Assembly (NCBI RefSeq): GCF_020091585.1
Contig: NZ_CP083582.1
Span: 6,086,536 to 6,150,535 of the forward strand
Source: Kovacikia minuta CCNUW1
Lineage (GTDB): Bacteria > Cyanobacteriota > Cyanobacteriia > Leptolyngbyales > Leptolyngbyaceae
Reading direction: 5' to 3'
Length of the DNA stretch: 64,000 bases
Position 1 is the stretch's first letter. Every line of letters starts with the position of its first letter. The position numbers and the translations under genes were made by a program. Positions 45,444-61,625 of the stretch are shown here, one piece after another. The notes below the pieces were generated by a model. The model had not been told where the DNA came from, made no database searches, and saw nothing but the letters and a program-made list of their open reading frames with translations.

Positions 45444-46577
45444 ATGAATTGGAACCAACTCAACAGCGCCTTTACGCTCTTTCTCAGTTTGTTGGTAGAA
45501 GCAGTGCCCTTCCTGCTTCTGGGGGTGCTGTTTTCTGGCATTCTGCTATTTTTTATTGATGAGCGTAAGCTGATCCGGCTGATGCCAAAACATCCACTCC
45601 TGGGTGCATTGGTGGGAAGTTGTATTGGGTTTCTGTTTCCCGTTTGTGAGTGTGGAAATGTGCCTGTGGCACGACGGTTGTTGATGCAGGGTGTGCCTTC
45701 TCCCGTTGCGATCGGCTTTTTGCTGGCGGCTCCAACCATTAACCCGATCGTGTTCTGGGCAACCTGGACAGCCTTTCGAGACCAACCTGAAATTGTGTTC
45801 ATGCGGGTGGGATTTTCTCTGGCGATCGCCACTATTATTGGCTGGGTTTTTAGCGTTCAAAAGGATCTACGTCCCTTCCTCCAACCTGTTGTTGCCCGTG
45901 CGATTACAGCCAGGAGGCAGGAGGCAGGAGGCAGGAGGCAAGAGGCAGGCGACGGAGAGGCAGCGAGAAGCGGAGAAGCAGGGAACGCTTCAATTCAAAA
46001 CTTAAAACTTAAAACTCAAAACGCTTACTCTACACCCCAATCTCCAACCTCCAACCCTCTGCTCCAGTCTGGTACCTACTGGTTGGGTAACGCTGGTCAG
46101 TCTGAGCGGGTGGATGTGGCTGAGCTTCAGGCGTCCATGCTTTCGGCGACTGTGGCACACAAACCACTTTCCTACAAGTTGGGGTTACTGCTAGAAAATA
46201 CGGTGCAGGAATTTCGGGAATTAGGCGGAGTCCTGGTTCTGGGAAGCGCGATCGCGGCTATTCTGCAAGTTTTTGTGCCACGCGATTTAATTTTGGGGTT
46301 AGGGCAAAGCCCCGTCACTTCCATCCTTGCCATGATGCTTCTGGCAACCGTTGTTTCAATTTGTTCTACCGTCGATTCCTTCTTTGCCCTTGCCTTCGCT
46401 TCCACCTTTACCACAGGTTCGCTGCTGGCGTTCCTGGTCTTCGGTCCCATGATTGACCTCAAAGGCATTGGCTTAATGCTGTCCATCTTCAAACCCAGAG
46501 CTGTTTTCTACCTGTTTGCCCTGGCAGCGATGTTGACGTTTGTGCTGACATTATTTGTCAACCTTTATGTCGGTTGA
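45444..46577 (+). CDS. PF03773 (DUF318/ArsP-like) permease with in-frame repeat insertion
   Basis: The 377 residues have about eight membrane segments in two halves. The family cysteine motif is seen as FPVCECGNVPVARRL and the paired core as AAPTINPIVFWATW. Between the halves, about residues 155-206 are translated repeat DNA (CAGGAGG units giving RRQEAGGRRQEAG; ATTCAAA-type units giving SIQNLKLKTQNA), which is not part of the normal fold. Relatives export organoarsenicals (ArsP) or pair with DUF1980 proteins. It is convergent with the arsenosugar-type cluster, which supports a metalloid role. Confidence 0.82.
   Translation: MNWNQLNSAFTLFLSLLVEAVPFLLLGVLFSGILLFFIDERKLIRLMPKHPLLGALVGSCIGFLFPVCECGNVPVARRLLMQGVPSPVAIGFLLAAPTINPIVFWATWTAFRDQPEIVFMRVGFSLAIATIIGWVFSVQKDLRPFLQPVVARAITARRQEAGGRRQEAGDGEAARSGEAGNASIQNLKLKTQNAYSTPQSPTSNPLLQSGTYWLGNAGQSERVDVAELQASMLSATVAHKPLSYKLGLLLENTVQEFRELGGVLVLGSAIAAILQVFVPRDLILGLGQSPVTSILAMMLLATVVSICSTVDSFFALAFASTFTTGSLLAFLVFGPMIDLKGIGLMLSIFKPRAVFYLFALAAMLTFVLTLFVNLYVG
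45911..46060. repeat. Composite STRR inside the permease coding sequence
   Basis: CAGGAGG units, a GACGGAGAGGC purine-rich part, CTTCAATTCAAAACTTAAA-type A-rich heptamers and a short C-rich part run in this order without a frame break. Confidence 0.85.
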
Positions 46578-46611
46578 AGCACATTCACCCTTGTTTATCT
46601 CTGTAGCCCCC

Positions 46612-47277
46612 TCACCCCCCACTCCTTTCTTTCTGAATCAACATCGGTAGAACAGAAAGCAGGGTCAAAAAACTGAGCGCGAGAAAGAGGGGCAGACGAT
46701 CGCCGCCATGCAATGCCTGGATTCCACTCATCCCTAACCAGGCGTAGGCAAGCGAAAGTGGAATGATGCCCAGGAACGTCCCCAATGCGTAGGTTCTCAG
46801 GCTAATGGGGGTCAGACCAAACAGGAAGTTGACCAGACTGAAGGGCGAAAGGGGGGTCAACCGGACTGCCAGCACAAAGTTAAACGGGTTACGGGCGATC
46901 GCCTGGTTTAAGCCGCGCAGCATCGCGTGTTTACCCAGGTAGTGGTCTGCCCACTGGTGCAATGAGTAACGCGCCAGCAGAAACGCGCCCGTTGCTCCTA
47001 ACGTTGCCCCAATAACTGACCACACTGCCCCCCAAAACACCCCAAAGACAGCCCCCGCTGCAACCGACATCACATTTCCTGGAAACCCCAGGCTTGTGGC
47101 TCCAGCAAAAACCAACACAAAAAAAGGGGCGGCACTGCCTCCCAAAGCATGCAACCGCTGAACTAAAAAAGCTTCATCAAACAATTCCTTGACGGGACTC
47201 AGCAGGCAAACGGCTAAAAACGAAAGAAGCGCGAGGGCGATCCAGAATTGGGTCTTAAAGCGTTTAGTGGGAGTCAT
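46612..47277 (-). CDS. TVP38/TMEM64 family (DedA-like) membrane protein
   Basis: About 221 residues with five or six membrane segments and the family core GFPGNVMSVAAGAVFGVFWG and NPFNFVLAVRLTPLSPFSLV. The ATG lies two bases after the stop of the glycosyltransferase gene, and GAGGG from that gene's end serves as ribosome site, so they form an operon. An earlier GTG/ATG upstream is less likely. The transported substrate is unknown; TVP38-like genes recur beside arsenosugar genes. Confidence 0.85.
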   Translation of the reverse strand: MTPTKRFKTQFWIALALLSFLAVCLLSPVKELFDEAFLVQRLHALGGSAAPFFVLVFAGATSLGFPGNVMSVAAGAVFGVFWGAVWSVIGATLGATGAFLLARYSLHQWADHYLGKHAMLRGLNQAIARNPFNFVLAVRLTPLSPFSLVNFLFGLTPISLRTYALGTFLGIIPLSLAYAWLGMSGIQALHGGDRLPLFLALSFLTLLSVLPMLIQKERSGG

Positions 47278-47279
47278 AA

Positions 47280-47975
47280 TTACCCTCGACGATACCATTT
47301 AACGATTGTTTCAGGAGGGATTTTGAGCGTATAAGCAAGCACAAACAGTTGGTTCATGAGGGTGGTTTTGCAGACGCCAAGCTTTTGCCAGCGCCGACCA
47401 GAGGTGAGAACGGCGGCAGGGGCGATCGCAATTTTGCCCAACGCCCTCAACCGGGAAATCATCTCAAAGTCTTCCATAATCGGCAAGTCTGGGAAACCTC
47501 CAATTTCCTGAAACACGGATGCTTTTAGGAAAATCGCCTGATCGCCGTAGGGCATCTGAAGCAGGTGCGATCGCCCCTTTACGCCCCACTCAACCAGCCG
47601 CAAGCCCCAGCTTGCCCCATCAATTTTGAGATCAAAGGCACCCGCGATCACGTTGGGTCGGCTCAAGGTTTGCCAGATTAAATGGTCAAAATTTTGCGGT
47701 AAAAGTGTATCTCCATGCAGAAACAGTAGCGTATTTCCCCTGGCAGCTTTTGCCCCTACATTCATTTGTCGGGCGCGACCAGGTAGGGAAATGATCACGC
47801 GTGCGCCTGCTGCTTCAGCAAGTTCAACCGTCGCATCCCGACTGCCCCCATCCACGACAATCACTTCCGTTGGGCTTGCGGTTTGAGCCGCTCTTAAGGT
47901 CGCAGGCAAATGTTTCGCTTCATTCAAAACTGGAACCACGATGGAAAGGGTTACTTTTGCTTCGTCATTCGTCAT
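47280..47975 (-). CDS. TIGR04283-type arsenosugar biosynthesis glycosyltransferase
   Basis: This 231-residue GT2-fold protein has LSIVVPVLNEAKHLPATL, EVIVVDGGSRDATVELA, GRARQMNVGAKAARG, LLFLHGDTLLP, QMPYGDQAIFLK and IMEDFEMISRLR. In cyanobacteria this family clusters with ArsM and TIGR04282 and is annotated as arsenosugar biosynthesis. The start codon falls within ATGACGA heptamer repeats and overlaps the TIGR04282 stop by four bases. The specific sugar donor is not known. Confidence 0.88.
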   Translation of the reverse strand: MTNDEAKVTLSIVVPVLNEAKHLPATLRAAQTASPTEVIVVDGGSRDATVELAEAAGARVIISLPGRARQMNVGAKAARGNTLLFLHGDTLLPQNFDHLIWQTLSRPNVIAGAFDLKIDGASWGLRLVEWGVKGRSHLLQMPYGDQAIFLKASVFQEIGGFPDLPIMEDFEMISRLRALGKIAIAPAAVLTSGRRWQKLGVCKTTLMNQLFVLAYTLKIPPETIVKWYRRG

Positions 47976-48066
47976 TCGTCATTCGTCATTGGGGTGTGGG
48001 GTGTGGGGTGTGGGGTGTGGGGTGTGGGGTGTGGGGTGTGGGGTGTGGGGTGTGGGGTGTGGGGTG
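47962..48066. repeat. STRR (CGTCATT)3 and (GGGGTGT)10 inside coding sequence
   Basis: Three CGTCATT units directly precede ten perfect GGGGTGT units and a partial one. On the minus strand they encode the HTPHPTP tail, the TIGR04282 stop and the TIGR04283 start. Confidence 0.95.
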
Positions 48067-48709
48067 ATTTTTTTCTTTGCCAAATTTTTAGGTCTTGAGG
48101 ATGGTCTACATCTGATAGGGTTGGGAGGTAGGCGATCGCCAGGTTCAACCGTTCTGCGATCGCTACCGTTTGGGAAAGAACTTGTGATGTACTCCAGGCA
48201 ATTCCCTGGAACAGTTCTGGGATGGGATGATGTAAACCAATCAGGTAGTAGCCTCCGTCTGTCGCTGGTCCTAAAACCAGATCATGGTGGTGCAATGTTT
48301 GAAACGCTTTTTGCATCAGTAACGTATCCAATTCGGGGCAGTCGGTCCCAATGATCAGGGTGGCGTCACTCCCGTTGTTATAGGCAGATTGGAAGGACTG
48401 GAACATGCGATCGCCCAGATCTCCCTCTGGTTGCACCTGGTAATCCAGATTTGCTCCCAACCAGCTTTGCATGCGGGCAGCATCCCCACCCGCAAAGCGC
48501 ACTTCCACCTTCAGAGTACGGATTGCTTGTAGCCCTCTGATTTGTGCCAGCGTATGCTCTGCCATCTGACGATGCAATTCAGCAGCACCCTCCGCACCCA
48601 GCACCGGAATCAAGCGCGTCTTGGCTTTTCCTGGTTCTGGATAGCGGGTAAAAACAATCAGATGTTCCCGATTAGCAGCAACTTTCTGGACCACAGCAAG
48701 CACTATCAA
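47972..48709 (-). CDS. TIGR04282-type arsenosugar biosynthesis glycosyltransferase with repeat-encoded tail
   Basis: This 245-residue nucleotidyl/glycosyltransferase-like protein has LIVFTRYPEPGKAKTRLIP, LIIGTDCPELDTLL, DLVLGPATDGGYYLIGL and LSDVDHPQDLKIW. After KIWQRK, about 30 residues (HTPHPTP repeats then PMTNDE) are encoded by ten GGGGTGT heptamers and ATGACGA units; the natural stop has been lost or replaced. The gene begins within the end of arsM; TTG and GTG are candidate starts. Overlaps on both sides indicate translational coupling. Confidence 0.85.
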   Translation of the reverse strand: MIVLAVVQKVAANREHLIVFTRYPEPGKAKTRLIPVLGAEGAAELHRQMAEHTLAQIRGLQAIRTLKVEVRFAGGDAARMQSWLGANLDYQVQPEGDLGDRMFQSFQSAYNNGSDATLIIGTDCPELDTLLMQKAFQTLHHHDLVLGPATDGGYYLIGLHHPIPELFQGIAWSTSQVLSQTVAIAERLNLAIAYLPTLSDVDHPQDLKIWQRKKSPHTPHPTPHTPHPTPHTPHPTPHTPMTNDE

Positions 48710-49883
48710 GATTGGTCACGGTTGCACGGTACTCCGCGCCTTTTGTCTCGCGCGGATGGCGCAATTCGTTGTGGCTACAGTCAAAAGGTTGGGCTGCACA
48801 AAGGGGAATTTCCTCGTAGGGGGGCAGGGGGAGAATACCCAGGTGATAGGGACCGTTGGGGTCAGTGTAGAGCTTGAAGGTTTTGTCGCAGACTGCCATC
48901 CGCTGTCCCCGATAGAGGGTGTGCCCATCATCATCCTGAACAGCCTTCCACGGACCTTTATAAACCACAGCCTGGTTGCGTTCCCAGCAGGGGCCTTCTT
49001 TACCCTTGAATGCCCGCACCGTCATCGATCGAAACTCAATTCCATCCACCACCTGCCAGGGTTGGTCTTGCCGAACCAGAATTTCCACCCCATAGAATCC
49101 GGCATCTTCAAACATTTTCAGGAACACATCTTCCCGAAATGCGCCCGCAATACAACCGCTCCATAGTTGGGCATCATTCAAAATTTGGGGCGTGGGGTCT
49201 TCGTCACAAACAATGTCGGAAATCACTGCGCGTCCACCCCGTTTCAAGACGCGATAAATTTCTCGAAAGAGTTGCTGTTTATCCTGGGGACGCACCAGAT
49301 TCAGCACACAGTTAGAAATGACCACATCTACACTGTTATCAGCAATCAGGGGTTGCTCCTGACGCAGGCGATCGCATACCGCCTCAAAGGCTGCCACCTG
49401 ATCGAACCGGGTAATAGGGTGCTGATTCAGCCATGCCTGTGCCTGATCCAGGTTCAATGCCAAATCCTGAATTTTGCCTTTGACAAAAGCAACATTGCGA
49501 TAGCCCAATTTATCTGCCATCTCATCCAGGTATTTGCGAGACAGAGCTAACATTTCTTCATTAAAGTCAACTCCAATTACCTGTCCCGATGCACCCACCT
49601 TCTGGGCCAGAATATAGCAATTTTTGCCAGCCCCCGAACCCAGATCCACAACGGTTTCGCCCACTGCAACGTAGCGGGTTGGGTCTCCACAACCGTAATC
49701 CTTTTCAATAATTTCCTGGGGCAGGCGATCGAGGTAGCCAGGCTCGTATTCCGTTGGGCAGCAAAGTTCAGCTTCGGGCTGTTGTGCCCCAGCCCCATAG
49801 CGTTGCAGCACAGCTTGCTCGACATCGTAACTGCTTCCAGCTTGAACGGAGTCTACCTGTTGGTGCGTTATCGCTTCAGCCAT
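48672..49883 (-). CDS. arsM: Arsenite S-adenosylmethionine methyltransferase, ArsM-like (arsenosugar type)
   Basis: It methylates trivalent arsenic in characterised relatives. The 403 residues contain the SAM motif VVDLGSGAGKNCYILAQ, conserved thiols in AELCCPTEYEP, VVISNCVLNLV and WSGCIAGAF, and a C-terminal domain ending in a Cys-rich CCGPESCC. The insert around residues 125-185 is typical of the larger cyanobacterial form. It is the first gene of the arsM-TIGR04282-TIGR04283-TVP38 run. The radical-SAM partner ArsS is not in the window. Confidence 0.9.
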   Translation of the reverse strand: MAEAITHQQVDSVQAGSSYDVEQAVLQRYGAGAQQPEAELCCPTEYEPGYLDRLPQEIIEKDYGCGDPTRYVAVGETVVDLGSGAGKNCYILAQKVGASGQVIGVDFNEEMLALSRKYLDEMADKLGYRNVAFVKGKIQDLALNLDQAQAWLNQHPITRFDQVAAFEAVCDRLRQEQPLIADNSVDVVISNCVLNLVRPQDKQQLFREIYRVLKRGGRAVISDIVCDEDPTPQILNDAQLWSGCIAGAFREDVFLKMFEDAGFYGVEILVRQDQPWQVVDGIEFRSMTVRAFKGKEGPCWERNQAVVYKGPWKAVQDDDGHTLYRGQRMAVCDKTFKLYTDPNGPYHLGILPLPPYEEIPLCAAQPFDCSHNELRHPRETKGAEYRATVTNLDSACCGPESCC

Positions 49884-50035
49884 GCACGCTTTCCTCTTAA
49901 TCCGTGAGTTGTATTTGGATGAGTTCCATCTTACGCGCCATCATCCAACTTCTGGTAGACAATAGAGCAACAGTATTCGGTTCAGGTTGAACCTGAGCCA
50001 GATTCCTGTAACCTCGTTGCTGGATAATTCTGTCT

Positions 50036-50542
50036 TTGAACAAGTCGGCTTTTAATGCATATGTCTGGTATCCAACGAAGCTCCAAAGCGTTAGCTGGTT
50101 TCGGGAAGAGTTTACTGCTCATCAAGAAAAGAAACTCGCCCAGCAGTTATTTGGTGTAACCCTCAATGAACCCATCATCCGCACCTATTCGGAATACCAG
50201 CAGCATCTTTTGCGCCGTTTAACCGAGGCATTTCAGCGCGAATCAGAAACCATTAGCGTCACTACCGTCATTTCCTCTCTGATTGGGTTACCCCATGAAG
50301 TCATTGAAGAACTGGTGCCCAAACGGATCAGCCTCAATCCAGGGCTGGAAACCTTTCTTTCAGACCCGTTTAGACTCACTTTTGAGGTAGAAATGCAGAA
50401 TGAAACCTTTCCCCTCATCGCCTGTCGGGAAACGGCTGCCATCATTACCGTTGAGTCAACCTCTTTCCAAACCTGGCTCCAGGCATGGCATACCCTCGAT
50501 GGGCTGAACAATCGCATCATTGATCTGGACCTGGATGAGTAG
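50036..50542 (+). CDS. Conserved-looking hypothetical protein
   Basis: I do not recognise a domain in these 168 residues. The composition is that of a soluble protein, with segments FREEFTAHQEKKLAQQLF and LIGLPHEVIEELVPKRISL, and an acidic C-terminus DLDLDE. The only plausible start is TTG. It is divergent from arsM. A long CCCCACA heptamer tract follows within 40 bases of the stop. Confidence 0.65.
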   Translation: MNKSAFNAYVWYPTKLQSVSWFREEFTAHQEKKLAQQLFGVTLNEPIIRTYSEYQQHLLRRLTEAFQRESETISVTTVISSLIGLPHEVIEELVPKRISLNPGLETFLSDPFRLTFEVEMQNETFPLIACRETAAIITVESTSFQTWLQAWHTLDGLNNRIIDLDLDE

Positions 50543-50577
50543 GGGAAGAGGACTTTTATCCTTTATTCTTTCCCCAT

Positions 50578-50694
50578 ACCACACACACACCCCAACCCCA
50601 CACCCCACACCCCACACCCCACATCCCCCAACCCACACCCCACACCCCACACCCCACACCCCACACCCCACACCCCACACCCCCACACCCCCCT
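50578..50694. repeat. (CCCCACA)n heptamer STRR
   Basis: About fifteen units of CCCCACA with a few variants (CCCCAAC, CCCACAT). It gives rise to several spurious open frames on both strands. Confidence 0.95.
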
Positions 50695-50806
50695 CTGCCC
50701 CCTCTCCAAAAAAAAAGCCCCGACCTTGCGAGCGGGGAAATTATGGAAACCAGGGTTCATGATACATGCGGTTAGGCAAAGCGAGTGAGGAATTTTGGAT
50801 GGGTGA

Positions 50807-51376
50807 TCAGTTATTTAAGGAACTACTAGACCAACGAAAAACCGTCTTCTTATCGGGTTGAATTTCTACGTATTCCGAATGGTAGAGCGTTTCAGGCAAA
50901 TGAACCCGAAACCAGATGCGACTGTAGCGGGTTTTTAGCCCAGGATAGGAAAATGATTCTGTGGTTTCAATAATTTCGGGGTCTGATGCGGGCAGGCATT
51001 CAAATATTAGGTTTTCGGTTGGAATGCCTAATTCTTCCTGAATTGCTCGTCTCGCGGCAGCTTCGGGAGGCTCGTCGGGTTTCCGTTTTTCTGCCAGTTC
51101 CTGCATTCCCCGTTTGCGAATTCTGCCATCGGAAAATTCTTGGTAGGCTTCAATCAACCTTTCCCCTTTATGGGAAATGACAATGACCAGGACGACATTC
51201 ACCAGCCGAATGGGTTGTTTTTCCTCCCAAACAATTTCGCAATCTCCCGTCTTGATTTCTTCTAGAAGGGCAGTAAATTCTTTGGCGTTCCCCTTGCCAT
51301 AGGTGGACAGGGATTCTGCCAGCGCTGCCCTTAATCGATCGAGTTCTTGCGTTTCCAGGTTCCTTCCAGCATCCAT
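50807..51376 (-). CDS. Nudix-like hydrolase with degenerate Nudix box
   Basis: The C-terminal 120 of 189 residues resemble a Nudix fold. The box region reads KRKPDEPPEAAARRAIQEEL, keeping the first Glu, Arg and the EE pair but with Ala where the first catalytic Glu of REUXEE is expected, and no leading Gly. The N-terminal 60 residues are helical. Hydrolase activity is therefore doubtful; a pseudo-enzyme role is possible. Start ATG. Confidence 0.65.
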   Translation of the reverse strand: MDAGRNLETQELDRLRAALAESLSTYGKGNAKEFTALLEEIKTGDCEIVWEEKQPIRLVNVVLVIVISHKGERLIEAYQEFSDGRIRKRGMQELAEKRKPDEPPEAAARRAIQEELGIPTENLIFECLPASDPEIIETTESFSYPGLKTRYSRIWFRVHLPETLYHSEYVEIQPDKKTVFRWSSSSLNN

Positions 51377-51572
51377 GAGACTGTAGGTTTATGTTTCCGT
51401 GAAATGCGCCTGGTCCCTGGCTTTCCTCATAGGAATCGTCTGCCAATTTCCGTCGCAAATCGAGGTCATTCTATATTGAGAGCTTATCGCATCTGAACCG
51501 CTCAAATTTAGAGGATTCAAACCTGAGATCGATCGCCCACTCAGCTGGCTTAGGGAACACTCAAAATAGAAT

Positions 51573-52922
51573 GTGTACCCTCACCCCCTCAATCTTTTGC
51601 TGAACTCCCAACCGCCCACCCAAAACCTGAATTCTTTCGCTGCTGAAGTTGAGGATTTCCCCCATTTCATGCTGAAGGAAATCTACGAACAACCCGCAAC
51701 GATTCAAACCTGCCTGACAAAGTACCTCAACCCTCTCCAGTTTCCAGTTTCCAGCCTTCAGTCTCCAGTCTCCAGTCTTCAGTCTCCAGTCTCCAGTCTT
51801 CAGTCTCCAGTCTCCAGTCCTCAGTCTCCAGTTCCCCACACCCCACACCCCACACCCCATACCCCTATACTCCACACCCCAGCTTCAATTCAAAATTCAA
51901 AACTCAAAATTCAAAATTCTCCCCTCCCCACTTCCTACTCTTCCCCTCTGAACCAAATCCACATCCTCGCCTGTGGCACCAGTCGCCATGCAGGGTTGGT
52001 TGCCCAATACTGGTTTGAACAACTGGTGGGGGTTCCAACGCGGGTGCGATCGGCATCGGAGTTTGTTTCTGCGCCCCTGCCGCTGACATCAGAGACCCTG
52101 ACGATCGCCATTACCCAATCGGGGGAAACGGCGGATACGCTGGCAGCCGTGGAACGGCAGAAGGAACGCTACGCCGTACTGCCAATTACGCAGCCAAGGA
52201 TAATTGGAATTACCAATCATCCGGATAGTTCCCTGGCGAAGCAGGTTGATGGCACCTTGTCTACCTTGGCTGGGGCTGAAGTTGGGGTGGCTGCAACCAA
52301 AACGTTTACGGCTCAATTAGCGGTACTGGCTGGTTTGGCGCTGGATCTTGCCCATCAGTTCCAGACAATCAGGGATGAGGCGATGCCCCAGCTTCTGGCA
52401 GAGGTGAGATCGCTCCCGGATCTGATCGCAGCGATCCTGACGCAAGAGGGGAAATCAATCTCCGAACTTGCCGTGAAACTGGCAACCGCTAAGGACTGTA
52501 TCGTTTTGGGACAGGGGGTGAACCGGGCAATTGCCCTGGAAGGCGCATTAAAACTGAAGGAGACCACCTACATCCATGCGGAGGGTTATGCCGCAGGGGA
52601 GTTTTTGCATGGGCCGATCGCCCTGCTGGATTAGACGATTCCTGTCATTGCGATCGCGCCTGCGGATCAGACCTATCAGCAAATGCTGACAACGGTTCGG
52701 CGGGTGAAATCCCACGGTTCTCCGGTAATTGGAATTACAACTGCTGCCGCTGATCCAGAAGCCACACAGCTATTTGACGATCAAATTCTCCTCCCCACCA
52801 GCCATGAACTCCTGACCCCGTTTTTGAGTGTGATTCCTTTGCAATTGCTGGCATACCATACTGCGGTTCACAAAGGCTTGGATGTCGATCGCCCCAGGAA
52901 TATCACAAAAGTGGTGATCTAA
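51573..52922 (+). pseudogene. glmS-like remnant: SIS (isomerase) half only, with repeat insertion and nonsense codon
   Basis: Full GlmS makes glucosamine-6-phosphate. Here the glutaminase half is missing. What remains starts with the linker DFPHFMLKEIYEQPATIQTC, then 70 or so residues of translated repeats (SLQSPVS, HTPHPTP, SIQNSKLKIQNS units), then two SIS domains (ILACGTSRHAGL; ITQSGETADTLAA; VAATKTFTAQLAVL; GQGVNRAIALEGALKLKET). In-frame TAG at 52632 stands where GlmS has Glu (ALLD-stop-TIPVIAIAPADQ). The reading then continues to LDVDRPRNITKVVI, the normal GlmS end. This looks like a truly decayed gene. Confidence 0.82.
51736..51945. repeat. Composite STRR inside the glmS remnant
   Basis: About a dozen CAGTCTC/CAGTCTT units, then CCCCACA units, then CTTCAATTCAAAATTCAAA-type units, then C-rich sequence. 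All are read in frame. Confidence 0.92.
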
Positions 52923-53588: not shown

Positions 53589-54134
53589 ATGGATAGAAAA
53601 TCGGACAGAAAATTGGTCAGCTTCCGGCTACCCGAAAATCTGATGCAAGACCTTAGAGAACGGGCAGAGAGCGACAACATTTCGGTCACTGAACTTGTTT
53701 GTAGACTGTTGCGCCAGGGTTTACAAACGACGGTGGACGATCGCATCGCCAGCTTAGAGGCAGAAGTTCAGGAGCTAAGAAAACTGAAACAGGTCAACTT
53801 GGGTGGGATTGCTCCCGCTTCCATTTACACAATGGTTCCCCATAATGGCTTTGCAACAGAGGGGGATAGCGAAACGAAGCGTCGGGTTGCTGACCTGGAA
53901 TCCCGCATGGAGGAGGTTCTGTCTAGTGTTAGACATATCGGCGCTTTACCCACCTATCTTGCCAAACTAGAAACCTTGATCGAGGAGGTGCAAACCAACC
54001 AGGCTGCTGCTTACAATCGCTCGATTCATTCCCAGGAAGAAACCCTTTGTGAGGAGATTGACCAGAAAAAACGTGACCGGGCAACTGCCCAATCAACGAT
54101 TCAAAAGCCCAAGCCGTCCTCAAGTTCAGCATGA
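53589..54134 (+). CDS. Ribbon-helix-helix/coiled-coil protein (putative DNA-binding partner of PIN-LeuA gene)
   Basis: From MDRKSDRKLVSFRLPENLMQ the first 45 residues match an RHH/CopG-type fold (strand KLVSFRLP, helices LMQDLRERAESDNISVTELV). A coiled-coil region follows (RIASLEAEVQELRKLKQV, RRVADLESRMEEVLSSVR), then a polar tail. RHH proteins bind operators as dimers and are common antitoxins or repressors. The next gene, 96 bases downstream on the same strand, encodes a PIN/LeuA-type fusion, so the two may be an operon. An earlier ATG exists 16 codons upstream. Confidence 0.72.
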   Translation: MDRKSDRKLVSFRLPENLMQDLRERAESDNISVTELVCRLLRQGLQTTVDDRIASLEAEVQELRKLKQVNLGGIAPASIYTMVPHNGFATEGDSETKRRVADLESRMEEVLSSVRHIGALPTYLAKLETLIEEVQTNQAAAYNRSIHSQEETLCEEIDQKKRDRATAQSTIQKPKPSSSSA

Positions 54135-54229
54135 TCGTCTGAGGAATTGACCGAAACAAGAAGGTGCCAAATGCGTTTTTGACGTGATTGGGTTTGCTCC
54201 GGGGTTTGCATGATGTCCCAGAAGGTCTT

Positions 54230-55172
54230 ATGCGTAACGCCCTAATTACTGCAAATGTTTTCCAAAATGTATTTAAGGACATTTTAGGGAGACCTGATCT
54301 TTCCCCCAGGTACTATGCTGACCTGATTCGCCGTCTCGCTGATCAGCCCGTCACCTGGTACATGACAGCGCTTGATTATGCCACTGGCGTGTGCCTTCTG
54401 GGACATTTTCAGGTTGCGCGTCGATGAAGCCTGCCAGAAGGCATACTGGGACGTGCTGCAACTGGTTCGGGTGTGTCCCATTGACGAGTGGATTTTGGAG
54501 GAGTCGGGTTATTACTCCCCGATTAACTTTTGCGATGCGCTGCGACTTGCGACCGCTGTTGCCAACAACCTGGATGCGATCGTCACCTGGGAACCCCATC
54601 TATTTGTCCGCACGGTCAAAGAACACCACCAGTTTGAAAATAACTGGTATTTCTTTATCAACATCCCAACCCGCAGTGCAGAGCTGGATGATACGGCTGA
54701 ATGCAAGATTGGTGTATTTGCCGTTGGTGCTTTCTTGCTATCGCTGGATCAGGATGAGGAACGGCGATTTTTGGAATGGTCGCGGTTGCAGCATTTCTGT
54801 TTGGAACGGTGTGATCTGATCTGCACCGATACGCACGAAGCTTCGGTGATTTTGTGCGTACCCAGTGGTGAGCAATTGGCGGCAACTGCGATCGGCAACA
54901 GTCCATTTGATGCGATTCAAAGGGCAGTGGATCAGGTAGTCAGCCAATCCCATCCAGCTCTGCCCCCCCGCTATCTGAGCCGCTTTTTTGTCCCCCAGGC
55001 AACTTTATTTGGTGCCGATGCTCCTGTAGAAGTGGTGATTCGGGTGGAATGTGCCGGGGAAAGCTTCCAGGAATGCTCCAGTCACAGCAGCGTCTTTTGG
55101 GCTGCCGCCGATGCCTACGTGAAAGTGATTAACAAAATTTGCCGCTATCCCAATCTGCCGATCGTGGCGTGA
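54230..55172 (+). pseudogene. PIN-like domain fused to LeuA allosteric-type domain, single-base frameshift
   Basis: AGAAGG precedes the ATG. One base must be removed at GG 54386-54387 to join TWYMTALDYAT with CAFWDIFRLRVDEA, giving 313 residues. Residues 1-135 look PIN-like (NFCDALRLATAVANNLDAIV, TWEPHLF), but the N-terminal acidic residue of PIN nucleases is absent (ITANVF where DTNVF is usual). Residues about 200-305 resemble the isopropylmalate synthase regulatory domain: EASVILCVPSGEQL, GNSPFDAIQRAVDQVV, and the second repeat VEVVIRVECAGESFQ, WAAADAYVKVINKI. A ligand-sensing role is inferred. It follows an RHH gene. Confidence 0.72.
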
Positions 55173-55176
55173 GCCT

Positions 55177-55318
55177 AATACCGATTAAATGAACTTCTGG
55201 GCAAATGCGCCCAATCGTAGGGGCGGGTTTTGTTAGATTGTTGGTTTAGCTGAATCGGTACGGACTAAACCTGCCCCTACAGGTATCTGCCCTATTCTCA
55301 ATTTAATTGGGTATGAGA
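55177..55318 (+). repeat. About 140 bp dispersed repeat, copy 2
   Basis: Reverse complement of 27953-28096 with few differences. It lies just after the PIN-LeuA gene. Confidence 0.8.
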
Positions 55319-55384
55319 TTGAAAGGCTTTGTGAGAAAGGGTTCCGATGGAATACTTTCTCACAATCCAAATAGGATCGCTATA
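55316..55384 (-). repeat. Hairpin-bearing repeat (related to 1943-2010)
   Basis: TTGTGAGAAAG and CTTTCTCACAA form an 11 bp stem at 55329-55365 around GGTTCCGATGG. It is directly joined to the preceding dispersed repeat. Confidence 0.7.
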
Positions 55385-55494
55385 TCTAGCTAATGTCAAC
55401 TTAAGAGGTAGCGTCTGCGGACTCAACCCGTCATCGTTTGGGGCAAACCACGCGGGGACTACCTCTCCGCATTCATCCCCAGATTCTCTAATAC

Positions 55495-57288
55495 CTATCC
55501 TTTTGTCGATCGCTTCACCTGCGATTCCAAAATCACGCCATAAAAGGGACTCGTTCGCATCAATTCTTCGTGGGTTCCCTGGGCTACGAGCCGTCCCTTA
55601 TCAACGAGCAAAATTCGATCGGCATTCTGGATCGTGCTGATGCGTTGCGCCACCACAAAGGTGACACATGCCTTTTGCTGCATCAGATCATCCAGCGCGG
55701 TTTGGATCTGGGAGGCAGTTTTGGCATCCACCGCGGAAGTGCTATCATCCAAAATCAGAATTTTGTAATCGGTGAGCAGGGTGCGGGCGATCGCCACACG
55801 CTGCTTTTGTCCCCCGGACAAACCAATGCCCCGCTCACCCACAGCTGTCTCATAACCATCCGGGAGACTGGCAATAAAATCATGAATCTGCGCGGTTTTG
55901 GCAACCTCAATCACTTCTTCTAAAGCAGCATCGGGTTTGGCGTAGGCAATGTTTTCCCGCAGCGTCCCAGAAAACAACGTGGTTTCTTGAAACACGATGC
56001 CAATATGGGTACGCAGACTTTGCAGGGTAAAATCGCGCACATCCTGTCCATCCAGGCGAATGGCTCCCGCTGTGACATCATAAAAGCGGGGAATCAGGTT
56101 CATGATGGTGCTTTTGCCCGAACCCGTCATGCCCAACACCGCAATTAACTCATTCGGTTTGGTTTCAAACGAAACTTCCTTCAAGGCTTCGGTCGCGGAA
56201 CCAGGATAGCGAAAGGAAACATTCTCAAACGTGACCCTCCCACTACAGGCTGTAAATGGCACCGCATGGGGACGATCGCGAATTTCAATCCTGGCATCCA
56301 CCACTTCGTAGACCCGGGCTGCCGATGCTGCCGCCTGGGCGATCGCTGGAGCCGCAAACCCAATCAACAAAATGGGTTGCAGAATCAGCAGCAGATAGGA
56401 ATTGAACGCCACCAGTTCCCCGACCGAAAACCTGCCCTCAATCACCTGTGCGCCCCCAAAGCCAAACACTACCAGCGTCACCAAATTGCTCAGCAAAAAA
56501 ATGAAGGGGAACGTGTTGCGGATGGCGCGGATGGTTTTCATGTTCGTCCGCACCAGAATGTCATTCATGGTGGTGTAGCGACTTGCCTCGGCAGACTCGC
56601 GCACAAAGGCTTTGACCACCCGAATGCCGACTAGATTCTCTTGCAGCACGGCATTGAGGTCGCCCAATTGCTCTTGCACCTGTCGAAATAAGCCATCATT
56701 TTTGGTCAGAAATCGCGCCAGCAACCATCCCGCCACGGGCACCACCGTTAGCGTAATTAACGCCAATTGCCAGTTCATGACCAGCAAAATGATGGCGATC
56801 GTGACCAGGGTGACGCCCGAACTGATCACCTGAATCAAGCTGGTGCTGAGGGCAGACCGAATCTGGTCAATATCATTCGTTACACGGGTCAGCAGTTGGG
56901 AGGTCTGGGACTGGTCGTGATAGCTAAAGCTAAGATTTTGAATCTTGCTAAAAATCTGATTCCGCAAATCGTAGGCAACCCCCTGAGAAGCCGCTTCTGC
57001 CCAGTAGCTTTGCCCAAAGTTGAACAAGCCACGGGCGATCGCTGCCACCACCAACCATCCAGCACTGTAAAGAACAACCTGCAAATTCTGTTTGGCAATA
57101 CCCTGGTCAATGCCCCAGCGAAACAGTTGCGGAGTAACTGCATTTGCAAACGTCAGGAATAGCAGACTAAACACCGCTCCCAGAGCCAGCCAGCGGTAGG
57201 CTTGCAGGCTGCCCAACACCCGCCAGAGCGGTTGTACGGATGAAGGCTCGTCGAGTTCCGGTTGCTGTGCCAAAAAACAGTACCTCAC
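55495..57288 (-). CDS. ABC exporter, membrane and ATPase half-transporter (MsbA/MdlA-like)
   Basis: The 597 residues are intact. About six membrane helices (20-310) are followed by an ATPase with Walker A VLGMTGSGKSTIMNL, Q-loop IGIVFQETTLFSG, signature LSGGQKQRVAIART, Walker B ILILDDSTSAVD and H-loop replaced by Gln (FVVAQRISTI). The Asp after Walker B stands where the catalytic Glu is usual, so ATP hydrolysis at this site may be weak, as in one half of heterodimeric exporters. GTG start. The substrate is unknown; the other ABC gene in this window (35.2 kb) has the normal Glu and His. Confidence 0.9.
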   Translation of the reverse strand: MRYCFLAQQPELDEPSSVQPLWRVLGSLQAYRWLALGAVFSLLFLTFANAVTPQLFRWGIDQGIAKQNLQVVLYSAGWLVVAAIARGLFNFGQSYWAEAASQGVAYDLRNQIFSKIQNLSFSYHDQSQTSQLLTRVTNDIDQIRSALSTSLIQVISSGVTLVTIAIILLVMNWQLALITLTVVPVAGWLLARFLTKNDGLFRQVQEQLGDLNAVLQENLVGIRVVKAFVRESAEASRYTTMNDILVRTNMKTIRAIRNTFPFIFLLSNLVTLVVFGFGGAQVIEGRFSVGELVAFNSYLLLILQPILLIGFAAPAIAQAAASAARVYEVVDARIEIRDRPHAVPFTACSGRVTFENVSFRYPGSATEALKEVSFETKPNELIAVLGMTGSGKSTIMNLIPRFYDVTAGAIRLDGQDVRDFTLQSLRTHIGIVFQETTLFSGTLRENIAYAKPDAALEEVIEVAKTAQIHDFIASLPDGYETAVGERGIGLSGGQKQRVAIARTLLTDYKILILDDSTSAVDAKTASQIQTALDDLMQQKACVTFVVAQRISTIQNADRILLVDKGRLVAQGTHEELMRTSPFYGVILESQVKRSTKG

Positions 57289-57395
57289 CCTGAGGGGATT
57301 TTCACCTTAATACTGTATATCGTTCCGGTTGAGCGGGTGCAAGTAACTTTCGCATCAGCACCAAGATCTCATGTCAGTCCGCTCCAACCGGGTTG

Positions 57396-58034
57396 TTATG
57401 CTTCGTCACCACTTGAACCCCAATCTACATCATCCAATGTTTTCAGCAATAAATCGATGAATGCGATGATTGCCCCACCAACCTCTGGACTGGGATCTAT
57501 AATTCGGTGCGCATAGGGATTCCGAAAAACAGCCATCATACCTGCATATAAATCACGATATGCCTTGAGTTGCTTCTCATCAAGCTTGCCAGCTAGCACT
57601 GGGTTCTTACCAGCAAAAATGAGGTTCACGATACCTTCACCAGTAGCATCTCGATTGATAGATTCAGTCTTTCCAAGCTTTCTTAACCGCTCTTCCAAAA
57701 CCACCGTTGCTGTACGAACTGCTTTATCCCAAGCTCTAGGATCATCGCCACCAGAACTCAACGAAAAACGACATCTTTCCCACAACTCAGGATCTAAATG
57801 CTTAACTTCAGTCAGAGGGATCAAGCGAGGAATAGCAGACAAGTCAGGATCACCCAGATTAGACCCCTCCGCTTTATTCTTAGCGATTTCTTGTTCTCGA
57901 AGACTCAACAAAAACTGTATTTTTCTATCGTGCGCTCTTTCCGCGTTAGGGTCACCAAAACCACCGCCATTTTCTGTTAACGATATGAGGTAATCAAGTT
58001 CTTTATCTATATCCTCTATGGTTCTTCTTTCCAT
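57396..58034 (-). CDS. TIGR02391 (Ymh) family protein with HEPN-like motif
   Basis: About 212 residues. The C-terminal half has the family block AVRTATVVLEERLRKLGK, TGEGIVNLIFAGKNPVL and MMAVFRNPYAHRIID. RNPYAH fits the R-x4-H motif of HEPN-type ribonucleases, which occur in toxin and phage-defence systems. GGAG five bases before the ATG supports MERRTIEDIDKEL as the start. Function is unproven. It is on the same strand as, and 106 bases downstream of, two small overlapping genes. Confidence 0.8.
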   Translation of the reverse strand: MERRTIEDIDKELDYLISLTENGGGFGDPNAERAHDRKIQFLLSLREQEIAKNKAEGSNLGDPDLSAIPRLIPLTEVKHLDPELWERCRFSLSSGGDDPRAWDKAVRTATVVLEERLRKLGKTESINRDATGEGIVNLIFAGKNPVLAGKLDEKQLKAYRDLYAGMMAVFRNPYAHRIIDPSPEVGGAIIAFIDLLLKTLDDVDWGSSGDEA

Positions 58035-58139
58035 TGGTTCTCCAAGAAGCATAGTTCAGAAGCATAACAAAGCGCTTAAGGCTGAAATAGGTGCGAGGTG
58101 TCAGGTAAGGGAAAAAGCGTCATCGATGGAAGCTAACTG

Positions 58140-58364
58140 CTAAGCGGCATCGTTGGAAGCTTGTTGCTCGGTGAATTTCCTGGCTTCCTCTGCTTCCATC
58201 TCAGCCAGAATCGCAGTCCACTCCGCCAGTTGACGCGCCATATTGGCACGAAGTACTGGATTCTTTTCCTTCCAAAGCCAGACATTTTCAAAGTAGACTG
58301 TATACCGCCAGTCTGTAATAGATTCTTGTAAAACACTCTGCCTATCAAAATTTGCTTCACTCAT
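58140..58364 (-). CDS. Small hypothetical protein
   Basis: This 74-residue, charged, probably helical protein (MARQLAEWTAILAEMEAEEA near the C-terminus) begins by a four-base ATGA overlap with the preceding gene, so the pair is one operon. No family is recognised. Confidence 0.6.
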   Translation of the reverse strand: MSEANFDRQSVLQESITDWRYTVYFENVWLWKEKNPVLRANMARQLAEWTAILAEMEAEEARKFTEQQASNDAA

Positions 58365-58684
58365 GGTAAGTAATTAACTTCTGTTTCAATTGCAACCAAC
58401 CTTCGTTGAGGTTCATTGTAGATGAATCGGATTCCAAAGATAGCTTTATCCATCAGGCTTACGTCCTGTCGGGCTTCTGTTGGTTCTAAATCTGGGTGTC
58501 TCGCAATGATAGTGTAATTCCCTGAGATCAAATTCTGAAACGTTGCTAAAGCGCCTCGGAGGGTAACGGGACACTGTTCTTCAAATAGAGCATTACGAAT
58601 GATAAGAACCGTTACTATCTCCCCACTAATGGAGGACATGGCAAATCCATCTTGATTTCTGATTGCTACATAAATGTCTGCCAT
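58361..58684 (-). CDS. Hypothetical protein, beta-sandwich-like
   Basis: About 107 residues from MADIYVAIRNQDGFAMSS. The pattern TLRGALATFQNLISGNYTII then a polar strand resembles small carboxypeptidase-regulatory-like (beta-sandwich) domains. The start was chosen 20 codons into a longer frame. It overlaps the next gene by four bases. Function unknown. Confidence 0.6.
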   Translation of the reverse strand: MADIYVAIRNQDGFAMSSISGEIVTVLIIRNALFEEQCPVTLRGALATFQNLISGNYTIIARHPDLEPTEARQDVSLMDKAIFGIRFIYNEPQRRLVAIETEVNYLP

Positions 58685-58941
58685 GTGTTCGATAAACACC
58701 GTTAACAGGGTATTGATGAGGAGACGGGGTAGGCATATAGGCACTTCTCCAATGCAACAATTATCTCTTCATTTAGCAGCGCTGGATTTCTGGTTACCCA
58801 GATCGAAAGAACGATCGAGCCAAATCCCCATAGAGACGTTCCATTGGGCAGGGGTCTTGGCTTTACAGCGATCGAAGTACCGTAGAAGCAAGATACCCGG
58901 AATCTTTGAAGACTCCAGAGATCTGAATCAAACGATGATTT

Positions 58942-59175
58942 TTAAGGCAATTTTTCCCAGGCGGCAGCAATAATTTCGCTGAGCCAGCGGCGTTGCTGAA
59001 CATCCAATAGGGCATCATCCGCCAGAACTTCTGCCATCAGTTCTTCCAGGGATTGACCTTTGGAACGAGCAACCTTGACCACTCCCGCGATCGCCGCTGC
59101 AATCAACTCCTCGCTCACAGGATTTTGCCGGAGTGCAACGACTTCTTGGGGATTGGCTGGAATAGGATAGTTCAT
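58942..59175 (-). CDS. Small conserved cyanobacterial-type hypothetical protein
   Basis: This 77-residue protein is rich in Ala and Glu with predicted helices (EELIAAAIAGVVKVARSKG; LEELMAEVLADDALLD; RRWLSEIIAAAWEKLP). It is divergent from cruA. I recall similar short proteins in cyanobacteria but no function. Confidence 0.65.
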   Translation of the reverse strand: MNYPIPANPQEVVALRQNPVSEELIAAAIAGVVKVARSKGQSLEELMAEVLADDALLDVQQRRWLSEIIAAAWEKLP

Positions 59176-59337
59176 GGCGGACCTAATTTGCAGACTTCAC
59201 CTGCCCGAATAAATGTGAGAATGAATTATGAGAAAACTGTAACGTTTTTTTGCCAGAATGTGACCTGTAGTTTAGCGCATTTTAATGCCTTCTTAACCCC
59301 TTTTCCTCAGCCAATTAATGGAGTTTATCTCTCTTAG

Positions 59338-61575
59338 ATGAAAGAAATCCTTTACATCGAAGTCCCTACCCCCGCAACTGAAAGCGTTCGAGCCTGGTTA
59401 CAGCAGGAATTTAACCCCTCTCTTGGTGAGAAAATTCCAGCTAGCAGCGGAATTCGGTTACAACTTCGCAAGCCTACAGCATCAGAACTGGCTATTTCTG
59501 AAAGTCAACCTGACTTATGTAACGAACTCTCAATATTTGTCTGGACTGTTCAACGCACCACCTATCTCAAGGTTTTTCGCTGGGCAGACCAACCCCTCCC
59601 CCAGGAGCCACAACTCCTGCACCATTTAACGACAGAAATTCGCGATCGCTTCCCCAATCAATATCCCCAACCTCCGGCGATCGATCCACACCAGTCGATT
59701 TTTGATGCGCTGATGGCGCAATACCCCCTCACTGTCCAGCACTTTCAAAAAATGCCGCATGGTGAATATGACCTGAGACGGGTCTACTGGTGGGAACAGC
59801 GCTGGCGGGAAGGCGTCAGGAATCCGCAGCAACCGAAGCAAGTGGTGTTTCGGAGGGATGAGGGCGCAGGGATAAGGGCAGAGGATGACGCGGAGATGCG
59901 GAGACACGGAGACACGGAGAATTCAATTCAAAATTCAAAATTCAAAATTCAAAATTCTCCCCCCACACCCCACACCCCACACCCCACACCCTCCTCCTAT
60001 GACCTGATCTACATCGGTGGTGCCCTGGGTGTCATCCATGCAGCTGTGATGGCCCGACTGGGTTACCGAGTGCTGCTGATTGAACGGTTACCCTTTGGCA
60101 GAATGAACCGGGAATGGAATATTTCCCGCAGTGAATTCCAATCCCTGATTGACCTGGGGTTATGTACTCCCGCTGAGTTTGAAAGCCTGATTGCACGAGA
60201 ATATATTGACGGGTTCCACAAATTTTTTGATGCCAACAACCCGCCCCAGTGTAAGGCTCCGATTTTGCACACACCGACCGTTTTGAATGTGGGGTTGGAT
60301 GCGGAGAAACTACTTCGGCTGTGTGGCGATAAACTGCGGCAAGCAGGGGGAGAAATTTGGGACGAGACAGAGTTTATTCGAGCAGACATCGACTCCGAGA
60401 AAGTGGTGGTTCAGTGCAACCATCTGACGACCCAGACATTGCGGTCAGCCAACGGGCGATTACTGGTGGATGCGATGGGAACCGCTTCCCCCATCGCCTG
60501 GCAACTGAACGGGGGACGGGCATTTGATAGTGTTTGCCCAACCGTGGGGGCGGTGGTTGCCAGTGGGTTTGAGCCAGGGGTTTGGGATGCCCGCTATGGG
60601 GATGTGTTGAACAGCCACGGAGATATTTCCAAGGGGCGGCAGTTAATCTGGGAACTTTTTCCGGCTGAGGGCGAAGAACTGACGATTTATCTGTTTCATT
60701 ACCACCAGGTTCACCCCGATAATCCCGGTTCCCTCTTAGAAATGTATGAAGACTTTTTTACAATTCTGCCGGAGTACCGCCGCTGCAATATGGACCAACT
60801 AGTCTGGAAAAAGCCTACATTTGGTTACATTCCAGGTCACTTCAGCGTCAGCGGGCGCGATCGCCAGGTTGCCTACGACCGCCTCATTTCGATCGGAGAT
60901 GCCGCTTCGCTCCAGTCCCCCCTCATCTTTACTGGATTTGGCTCTCTAGTCAGAAACCTGTCCCGGCTGACTCACCTTCTGGACACCGCACTCCGCCATG
61001 ACTTGCTGACCGCAACCCATTTGAATCAAATTCGTGCTTATCAGAGCAATGTTTCTGTCACCTGGCTGTTCTCGAAGGGCATGATGGTTCCCACTGGACG
61101 AAATATTCCTCCAGAGCGGGTTAACGCCATGCTGAACACGTTCTTTGGCATCCTGGCAGCGGAACCACCCGCCATCGCCGAAGCCTTTATTAAAGATCGG
61201 GTAGATTGGGTTTCATTCAACCGCATGGCGTTGAAGGCTGCCTGGCAAAACCCATCCCTGCTCCTGTGGATTTGGGATCTAGCCGGACCCGCCGATCTGC
61301 TGCGCTGGCTCCGCAGTTATCTTGACTTTACTTTAGGCGCATTTCTTAGTGCCCTACTCCATACCTGGTTCCCAGGTTTCCTCAGCCAGATCCAACCCTG
61401 GCTAGAACCCCGCTTTCCCTCCCTCTGGCTCTGGTTGCTTGCCCAAAACTACGCCTATACCGATGGGATCGGCAAAACAAAAGCCAGGGGAAGAGGTGAG
61501 CAGAAGGCAGAAGGCAGAGGGCAGAAGGCAAAAGGGGATGAGGGAGATGGGGAAGGGGAAGGGGTGAGGGGGTAG
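59338..61575 (+). CDS. cruA: Lycopene cyclase, CruA-type, with in-frame repeat insertion and repeat-encoded tail
   Basis: CruA cyclises lycopene toward gamma- and beta-carotene. The 745 residues have an N-terminal extension of about 175 typical of CruA, then the FAD-binding core: DLIYIGGALGVIHAAVMARL, ERLPFGRMNREWNISRSEF, VDAMGTASPIAW, and ISIGDAASLQSPLIFTGFG. Between the extension and FAD domain, about 45 residues (RRHGDTEN, SIQNSKFKIQNS, PHTPHPTP) are translated repeats. The C-terminal 35 or so residues (KAEGRGQKAKGDEGDGEGEG) come from GGCAGAA-type repeats, so the stop is also repeat-derived. The related CruP is an alternative call. Confidence 0.82.
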   Translation: MKEILYIEVPTPATESVRAWLQQEFNPSLGEKIPASSGIRLQLRKPTASELAISESQPDLCNELSIFVWTVQRTTYLKVFRWADQPLPQEPQLLHHLTTEIRDRFPNQYPQPPAIDPHQSIFDALMAQYPLTVQHFQKMPHGEYDLRRVYWWEQRWREGVRNPQQPKQVVFRRDEGAGIRAEDDAEMRRHGDTENSIQNSKFKIQNSPPTPHTPHPTPSSYDLIYIGGALGVIHAAVMARLGYRVLLIERLPFGRMNREWNISRSEFQSLIDLGLCTPAEFESLIAREYIDGFHKFFDANNPPQCKAPILHTPTVLNVGLDAEKLLRLCGDKLRQAGGEIWDETEFIRADIDSEKVVVQCNHLTTQTLRSANGRLLVDAMGTASPIAWQLNGGRAFDSVCPTVGAVVASGFEPGVWDARYGDVLNSHGDISKGRQLIWELFPAEGEELTIYLFHYHQVHPDNPGSLLEMYEDFFTILPEYRRCNMDQLVWKKPTFGYIPGHFSVSGRDRQVAYDRLISIGDAASLQSPLIFTGFGSLVRNLSRLTHLLDTALRHDLLTATHLNQIRAYQSNVSVTWLFSKGMMVPTGRNIPPERVNAMLNTFFGILAAEPPAIAEAFIKDRVDWVSFNRMALKAAWQNPSLLLWIWDLAGPADLLRWLRSYLDFTLGAFLSALLHTWFPGFLSQIQPWLEPRFPSLWLWLLAQNYAYTDGIGKTKARGRGEQKAEGRGQKAKGDEGDGEGEGVRG
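59870..59996. repeat. Composite STRR inside cruA
   Basis: A purine-rich part with GGAGACACGGAGACACGGAG is followed by four ATTCAAA units and four CCCCACA units. The frame is kept open through all of it. Confidence 0.95.
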
Positions 61576-61625
61576 GGAAGTTTTAATTTTGAGTTTTGAG
61601 TTTTAAATGAGGAGCGAAGGATGGG
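61498..61625. repeat. STRR at the 3' end of cruA (GGCAGAA, then TTTTGAG units)
   Basis: GGCAGAA/GGCAGAG units are translated at the cruA C-terminus. TTTTGAG/TTTTAAA heptamers follow the stop. Confidence 0.85.

Follow-up and report, generated by a model that had tools for sequence, protein, structure and literature searches.

The closest described counterparts of the repeats treated here are short tandem repeats of the cyanobacterial heptamer (STRR) kind and several families of dispersed bacterial elements. In Anabaena 7120, 68% of heptamer repeats are intergenic, which leaves about a third inside genes, and they often lie 50 bp or less from a stop codon (Rehm et al. 2015, PMC4692102); the available part of that account scores location and strand, without protein inserts or orthologues. 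Rickettsia palindromic elements (RPEs) are in-frame repeat elements in unrelated metabolic genes (PMC10969869), and the enterobacterial RU units are intergenic repeats that also occur within genes, where the RU amino acid sequence is maintained (Delihas 2007, PMC2759123). Here we analyze a 64,000-nucleotide stretch of the filamentous cyanobacterium Kovacikia minuta CCNUW1 (C1:6086536-6150535, hereafter the window), in which tracts of 7-bp units are read in frame through the genes of a PF03773 permease, a GlmS-like paralogue, and a CruA-like protein, and we follow these heptamer tracts through the genome and into relatives.

Like the STRR heptamers GGGGA(T/C)T of Anabaena and Nostoc, the tracts have 7-bp units and form many dispersed arrays; unlike the Anabaena/Nostoc account, so far as its available text goes, they comprise many words, are built of ordered modules, and reside in frame in core enzymes (PMC4692102). 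RPEs likewise lie in frame within unrelated genes, but they form families of elements about 150 bp long that encode a conserved peptide, whereas the present tracts are modular heptamer arrays without a single consensus (PMC10969869). In place of one consensus of about 100 to 150 bp with a conserved peptide, we found mosaics of many heptamer words with a preferred class order. RU units have a fixed length of 103 to 168 bp, in contrast to the variable-length arrays that occupy loops of housekeeping enzymes here (PMC2759123). The REPINs with their RAYT transposase are similar in being many dispersed, hairpin-prone short elements (PMC3116915); unlike them, the present tracts show no association with the 10 Y1-transposase loci compared, and no search for a REP 16-mer was made. 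Among the open-access papers listed, we recognised none that describes heptamer elements inserted in frame into conserved enzymes of cyanobacteria; most subscription journals lie outside that scope, and priority is not established.

Heptamer tracts inside three proteins of the window

The tracts are present in protein genes, continuous with their reading frames, specific to lineages, recurrent at the same loops, polar in their modules, and in frame far more often than the gene-breaking cases that we found. Quite probably, STRR-type intergenic elements have been copied into tolerant loops, are kept mainly where frame and stop codons allow, and are translated as disordered segments.

As the initial annotation had proposed, 7-bp tracts run in frame through all three window genes, and every array called with Tandem Repeats Finder (TRF) there lies within the open frame (Table 1). 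The period-7 arrays occupy 45911-45949 and 45997-46022 in the permease gene; 51734-51832, 51834-51881, and 51887-51919 in the GlmS-like gene; and 59925-59957 and 59961-59991 in the CruA-like gene, which also has a period-8 array at 59887-59920. Family models were accepted at E 1e-5 for Pfam and E 1e-10 for NCBIfam. A single PF03773 match crosses the permease insert (protein residues 6-373 aligned with positions 2-293 of the 294 in the profile), and NCBIfam CuZnOut_SO0444 falls on residues 13-375, under the model's cut-off. The permease loop is 58 aa long here compared with 20.8 aa (20th percentile) in the 25 of 29 relatives that parsed, only one of which has a long loop, also periodic in sequence. 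The added length had been put at about 45 to 70 residues, which is right for the GlmS-like protein (about 60) and too high for the permease and the CruA-like protein (about 37 each, measured against short-looped relatives).

The label "glmS remnant" has to be replaced, as the gene is an isomerase-only GlmS-like paralogue. It is intact, at 378 to 478 aa, in the 12 relatives compared (29 loci were taken, several of them true GlmS), and has a single in-frame TAG here (52632-52634), where the relatives compared have no stop. The full-length glmS gene lies at C1:3815720 and encodes 677 aa matching model positions 1-601 of 601.

For the CruA-like protein, the name cruA comes from the initial annotation: no NCBIfam or Pfam model matches at the above cut-offs, and the predicted fold matches FAD oxidoreductases. 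The AlphaFold2 model, built on 29 sequences, is of moderate confidence (mean pLDDT 61.8), and residues 165-215 and the tail 709-745 have pLDDT below 50 and are predicted to be disordered, between and after folded parts. A second CruA-like (possibly CruP-type) match at C1:1000924-1002238 of the same genome is broken into two pieces, and one of them contains 2 TGA codons; in most listed relatives this match is one frame of about 510 to 600 aa.

Genome-wide scale and host genes

The genome of 8.56 Mb is assembled in 3 contigs (100% complete, 4.11% contamination), and our census covered 1.264 Mb, made up of the window and three 400-kb blocks (A, B, and C). In each of the four stretches, TRF reports period 7 more often than any other period. 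Merged arrays of period 7k number 604 and cover 24,047 bp, and a codon-chunk-shuffled 400-kb block gave 1 such array against 225 in the real block. Period-7 arrays were grouped into 429 clusters, which were classed by the codon statistics of their flanks. In a sensitive test, a coding open reading frame (ORF) spans 86 clusters, 45 of them at least 60 bp long, and 343 are not spanned. Dispersed, mainly intergenic clusters with a 7-bp tandem unit are the pattern of the cyanobacterial STRR heptamers. Several in-frame tracts in one window, which had been thought unusual, are thus part of a genome-wide pattern. Scaling the 86 clusters to the whole genome gives about 580, a figure that is indicative only because blocks B and C were chosen after hits had been seen there. 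In-frame tracts lie inside dozens of ordinary enzymes, and probably in hundreds genome-wide.

The recurrence of peptide words in unrelated proteins, also pointed out in the initial annotation, extends well past the window: a 30-residue peptide of the CruA-like insert matches at least 130 places, or at least 96 merged loci, across the genome. At least 79 of the 96 loci lie in an open frame of 200 aa or more; these counts are lower bounds, coming from the 150 of 543 candidates that were scored. The same peptide finds a match at E 0.001 in 9 of 42 genomes of the order, this one included. Period-7 density is 19.1 arrays per 40 kb here against 0 to 14 in 40-kb samples of 20 relatives. Loci L286 and L306 of a relative from another family (G057) hold 25 arrays of other periods per 40 kb together with 13 of period 7k.

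Our first list held 38 ORFs with in-frame tracts, and the inserts lie within unrelated protein genes, as those of RPEs do; ORFs 10, 11, 13, and 28 resemble ordinary protein repeats and are still counted. Among the hosts are GlmS, RecG, Mfd, IleS, an NAD synthase with two inserts, a quinone-type PyrD, PanC-Cmk with three tracts, a PHO4 phosphate transporter, a GH116 protein, and AnmK and ThiL, both as incomplete ORFs. Family models run straight through the inserts of GlmS (its 677 aa on the complete model), RecG (residues 13-871 on 9-826 of 826), and IleS (residues 18-865 on 20-857 of 861) and across both inserts of the NAD synthase (residues 1-606 on 5-543 of 546). PyrD and PanC-Cmk are each matched in two stretches, one on either side of the insert, and neither has a second full-length match in the genome. 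The suggestion that the repeats settle at tolerant interdomain linkers is borne out as to tolerance and too narrow as to linkers, since intradomain loops of GlmS, PyrD, and IleS are also used.

Reading frame and split genes

Because 7 and 3 are coprime, a pure array of heptamers yields one and the same set of seven residues from any entry frame, so that on a given strand either all three frames contain a stop or none does. Read-through is therefore possible from any frame on the right strand, provided that the total added length is a multiple of three. Of the 429 clusters, 52 have flanks in the same frame with no stop between them, 26 have codirectional flanks in different frames, and 9 have flanks in the same frame with a stop; the remainder are 13 convergent, 1 divergent, 223 with one coding flank, and 105 with none. 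Where coding flanks are codirectional, 52 of 87 clusters are thus in frame and open. The other 35 include 21 whose upstream stop stands ahead of the tract, as in a gap between two genes. For the last 14, Pfam assigns 11 pairs to different proteins (2 of the 11 with a one-sided match), and 3 look like one gene in two frames: the histidine kinase, MenD, and, probably, the AIRC-family protein. A relaxed scan added 43 pairs, 34 of them with a stop ahead of the tract; the other 9 include the split MiaA, the probably split WD40 protein, and one pair without a family match. In 30 of the 35 codirectional gene gaps, no more than 30 nt separate the upstream stop codon from the start of the tract.

Among 24 candidate pairs, we found six genes split at tracts, four clearly and two probably (Table 1), compared with 86 in-frame clusters, whereas random insert lengths would place two in three out of frame. 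The idea that tracts never break genes was dropped when these six were found. The halves of the MenD, MiaA, histidine kinase, AIRC, and WD40 genes lie in different frames and overlap or adjoin; the AIRC-family ORF is a second copy, PurE being intact elsewhere in the genome. The split genes may reflect decay, sequence error, or switching by the number of units.

Anatomy, orientation, and word choice

The longer clusters are modular and polar: a purine-rich arm leads into an AT core, (AATTCAA)n for example, and this into a pyrimidine-rich arm. Of the 104 clusters that reach 80 bp, 60 begin G-rich and end C-rich, and 0 do the reverse (33 keep the same skew and 11 are weak). Oriented by their cores, neighbouring purine (R), AT-core (K), and pyrimidine (Y) modules follow the order RK 27 times and KR 0 times, RY 24 times and YR 0 times, and KY 28 times and YK 9 times. 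Since a purine arm with a pyrimidine arm behind it reads alike on both strands, the element is a palindrome in terms of module classes. Hairpin folding was rejected as a trait common to all clusters, with a fold z below -2 relative to shuffles in only 6 of 19 in-frame clusters.

Where in-gene clusters contain the AATTCAA core in a single orientation, it is the sense orientation in 34 of 34. Words that are stop-free on both strands make up 80 of 147 in-gene arrays and 89 of 372 others, an enrichment that counts for little because "in-gene" is itself defined by an open ORF. The opposite strand is likewise stop-free in 80 of the 140 arrays whose sense strand is, against about 73% expected over all heptamers. 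The choice of words differs between genes and elsewhere by more than this definition explains: ACACCCC occurs 30 times in genes and 17 elsewhere, ACCACCT 1 and 39, and ACACCTG 1 and 33. A backward-read pattern, AAAACTT, considered as a control, is itself a repeat word of this genome and was not used.

The same loops in relatives

The segments are absent or different in most of the orthologues aligned, in line with the earlier proposal of intergenic-type heptamer elements at tolerant sites. The IleS loop that joins the motifs DSGSSW and YPAD has about 19 extra residues here and in relative G013, where related DNA marks a shared insert, and in G003 the same site is lengthened by other words; these two are the only relatives of 21 with an insert, 2 others have 4 extra residues, and 17 have none (1 of 22 loci did not parse). 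The PyrD loop exceeds the short class by at least 12 residues in 11 of 28 parsed relatives (1 of 29 unparsed), 8 of them periodic beyond 100 shuffles, and the PanC loop is long in 9 of 29 (one, L360, mis-parsed), 5 of them periodic. A long GlmS loop, also periodic, occurs in 1 of 14 relatives.

The linker of the CruA-like protein could be read in 72 of 80 named loci and ranges from 13 to 74 residues. Among linkers of at least 25 residues, 33 of 38 exceed 50 shuffles in periodicity; the unit is 7 in 12 linkers, 8 in 11, 9 in 7, and 14 in 3. The first half is the purine-richer in 37 of 38 long linkers compared with 21 of 34 short ones. L227 and L261 are 98.6% identical in downstream DNA and have unrelated linkers, a difference that could be due to allele exchange because L261 resembles L243; such exchange may occur among Nostoc-group strains. 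L244 and L252 (95.4% identical downstream) differ by net 78 nt, and L233 and L231 (94.6%) by net 66 nt, in both pairs through blocks that resemble small dispersed repeats. In other genera, other repeat words fill the loops of PyrD, PanC, IleS, and the CruA-like protein, and related species appear to have filled some of these loops independently.

Blocks of this kind seem to be nested in the CruA-like linker arrays of L233, L244, L255, and L191, by our own judgement and without database comparison. The very small mobile repeats of Nostoc treated by Elhai and colleagues in 2008 reportedly insert into heptamer arrays, and we know of no small dispersed repeats of Nostoc that lie in frame within proteins.

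Origin of the inserts

The explanation that fits best is copying into loops, followed by slippage and exchange with loss of most gene-breaking copies. The tracts would be copies from a genome-wide population of STRR-type repeats that lies mostly between genes, and such copies would have entered genes repeatedly at tolerant surface loops, linkers, and C-termini. New copies may arrive by ectopic recombination or template switching among the many existing ones and then change length by slippage. Most copies that break genes would be purged; the survivors would be translated as disordered low-complexity loops and carried as near-neutral passengers, with selection acting on frame and fold only.

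Several observations weigh against this explanation. A joined-flank self-BLAST of the sampled stretches found no empty site, and the relatives are too distant to give borders at the DNA level. The split genes indicate that purging is not complete, and their count comes from 24 candidate pairs, with about 290 clusters that have at most one coding flank outside the search. In ThiL (L156:15037-16192), the frame changes close to the N-terminus at a place free of tracts, so that sequence errors or a general decay of genes may have a share as well. The orientation and word tests are partly circular, in-gene meaning spanned by an open ORF, and the AATTCAA core is also sense-biased (8:1) where codirectional coding flanks share no open frame, so that its 34:0 orientation cannot be attributed to translation alone. 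In-gene arrays are not clearly shorter than others (median 4.7 and 4.6 copies, p 0.47; at least 8 copies in 4 of 92 and 45 of 438, p 0.08), and shorter arrays as a sign of selection against slippage were given up as not significant.

A bolder version, which we offer tentatively, is that modular, palindrome-like heptamer elements copy themselves through cyanobacterial genomes, with protein loops as landing sites that are refilled independently in different lineages, and keep supplying core enzymes with new disordered segments. Such an element would be pre-adapted to translation, because its seven-base unit gives the same peptide in every frame. The class-level palindrome with its 60:0 polarity, the many dispersed copies, and the net in-frame insertions between close strains could also point to a true mobile element, a MITE- or REPIN-like palindrome that is moved by a transposase and lands in genes as RPEs do; we regard this as rather unlikely, since no single consensus was seen, only 6 of 19 in-frame clusters have a fold z below -2, and only 2 of 10 Y1-transposase loci have a period-7 array in the 33 kb of flanking DNA covered, for which the genome average predicts about 16 arrays. 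A RAYT/Y1 link was rejected on the same count. Somewhat less likely still is a local origin, in which loops free of constraint build up tandem repeats on the spot through replication slippage and no copied element is inserted. Loops of this kind are variable anyway, and CruA-like linkers have units of 7, 8, and 9 in different lineages, as this origin would have it. Against it stand the recurrence of identical words, in identical order, across unrelated genes of a single genome, the strongly polar order of modules, and strains with 94.6-98.6% identical downstream DNA that differ wholesale (L227/L261) or by net 66-78 nt (L231/L233 and L244/L252).

It is improbable that the segments were selected as functional linkers or as phase-variation switches in which a change of one 7-bp unit shifts the frame. 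The unit length is not a multiple of 3, and MenD and MiaA, core enzymes whose plain loss would be odd, are among the six genes split at tracts; however, segment sequence is not conserved between genera, many relatives have no segment, core enzymes are poor candidates for on-off switching, and the split genes may be sequence error. The last two alternatives are both highly improbable. One is that the inserts are skipped by ribosomal bypass or RNA processing, as the hairpins that some composites can form might allow; skipping requires neither the stop-free frame of the 52 open in-frame clusters (a property they have by definition) nor the large excess of in-frame clusters over split genes found. 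The other is assembly artefact or pseudogenes, to which the in-frame TAG of the GlmS-like gene, the split of AnmK by its second tract, and the frame change of ThiL would conform, and against which stand the quality of the three-contig assembly, the IleS insert common to another genome, and the full family models that span inserts.

Other repeat tracts of the window

The window contains further tracts in intergenic, convergent, and C-terminal positions, and these are listed with the features discussed above in Table 1. C-terminal tails of proteins are also made by tracts, namely those at 61500-61577, 34495-34519, and 47961-48066.

Table 1. Coordinates of heptamer tracts, their host genes, and genes split at tracts (positions refer to the window unless a block or locus is named)
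Feature	Position	Strand	Call	Basis
PF03773 (ArsP_1) permease ORF, 377 aa, with in-frame repeat segment	45444-46577	+		open frame, Pfam
Permease insert: (CAGGAGG)n purine arm, degenerate middle, (AAAACTT)n core, pyrimidine-rich end	45911-46060	+		TRF, alignment
GlmS-like (SIS, isomerase-only) ORF, 353 aa, ends at in-frame TAG	51573-52634	+		ORF, Pfam SIS domains
GlmS-like insert in loop before first SIS domain: (TCTCCAG)n, (CCCCACA)n, (AATTCAA)n, pyrimidine-rich end	51734-51940	+		TRF, alignment
Same frame past TAG, 95 codons, matches C-terminus of relatives	52635-52922	+		comparison with relatives
CruA-like FAD-type protein ORF, 745 aa	59338-61575	+		ORF, AlphaFold2, Foldseek
CruA-like linker insert: purine arm including (GACACGGA)n, (AATTCAA)n core, (CCCCACA)n arm	59857-59996	+		TRF, linker comparison
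Second CruA-like tract, (GCAGAAG)n, in-frame C-terminal tail	61500-61577	+		TRF, translation
Intergenic-type composite beginning just past stop of ORF 20780-22336: purine arms, AAACTCA core, CCCCACA arm	22340-22508	.		TRF
(GCAGGAG)n, in-frame C-terminal end of ORF 31835-34534	34495-34519	+		TRF
Composite between convergent ORFs: AGTGGGG arm, TTTTGAA core, CTACCAC arm	37004-37154	.		TRF
(TTCGTCA)n and (TGGGGTG)n where two minus-strand genes meet; C-terminal repeat tail of ORF 47972-48709	47961-48066	-		TRF
Intergenic (CACACCC)n array, 15 copies, comparison case	50586-50691	.		TRF
Split histidine kinase	block A, 72731; L132:10716-13099		clear	halves in different frames at period-7 tract
Split MenD	block B, 42152; L151:1523-3269		clear	halves in different frames at period-7 tract
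Split MiaA	block B, 26443; L150:6120-7297		clear	halves in different frames at tract
Split AIRC-family protein	block B, 173699; L157:13259-14159		probable	halves in different frames at tract
Split WD40 protein	block B, 294745; L163:13925-17829		probable	halves in different frames at tract
Split AnmK	L131:13460-14855		clear	one composite tract in frame; second composite downstream splits gene

Implications

Annotators of filamentous cyanobacteria should allow for repeat segments of this kind, which distort gene lengths and alignments as well as structure prediction. If our reading of the inserts as copied intergenic elements is true, the loops of the CruA-like protein, PyrD, PanC, and IleS would be natural experiments on insertion-tolerant positions and on the rate of repeat turnover. 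Repeat DNA would then be a steady source of new bacterial protein sequence, at hundreds of sites and with core enzymes included.

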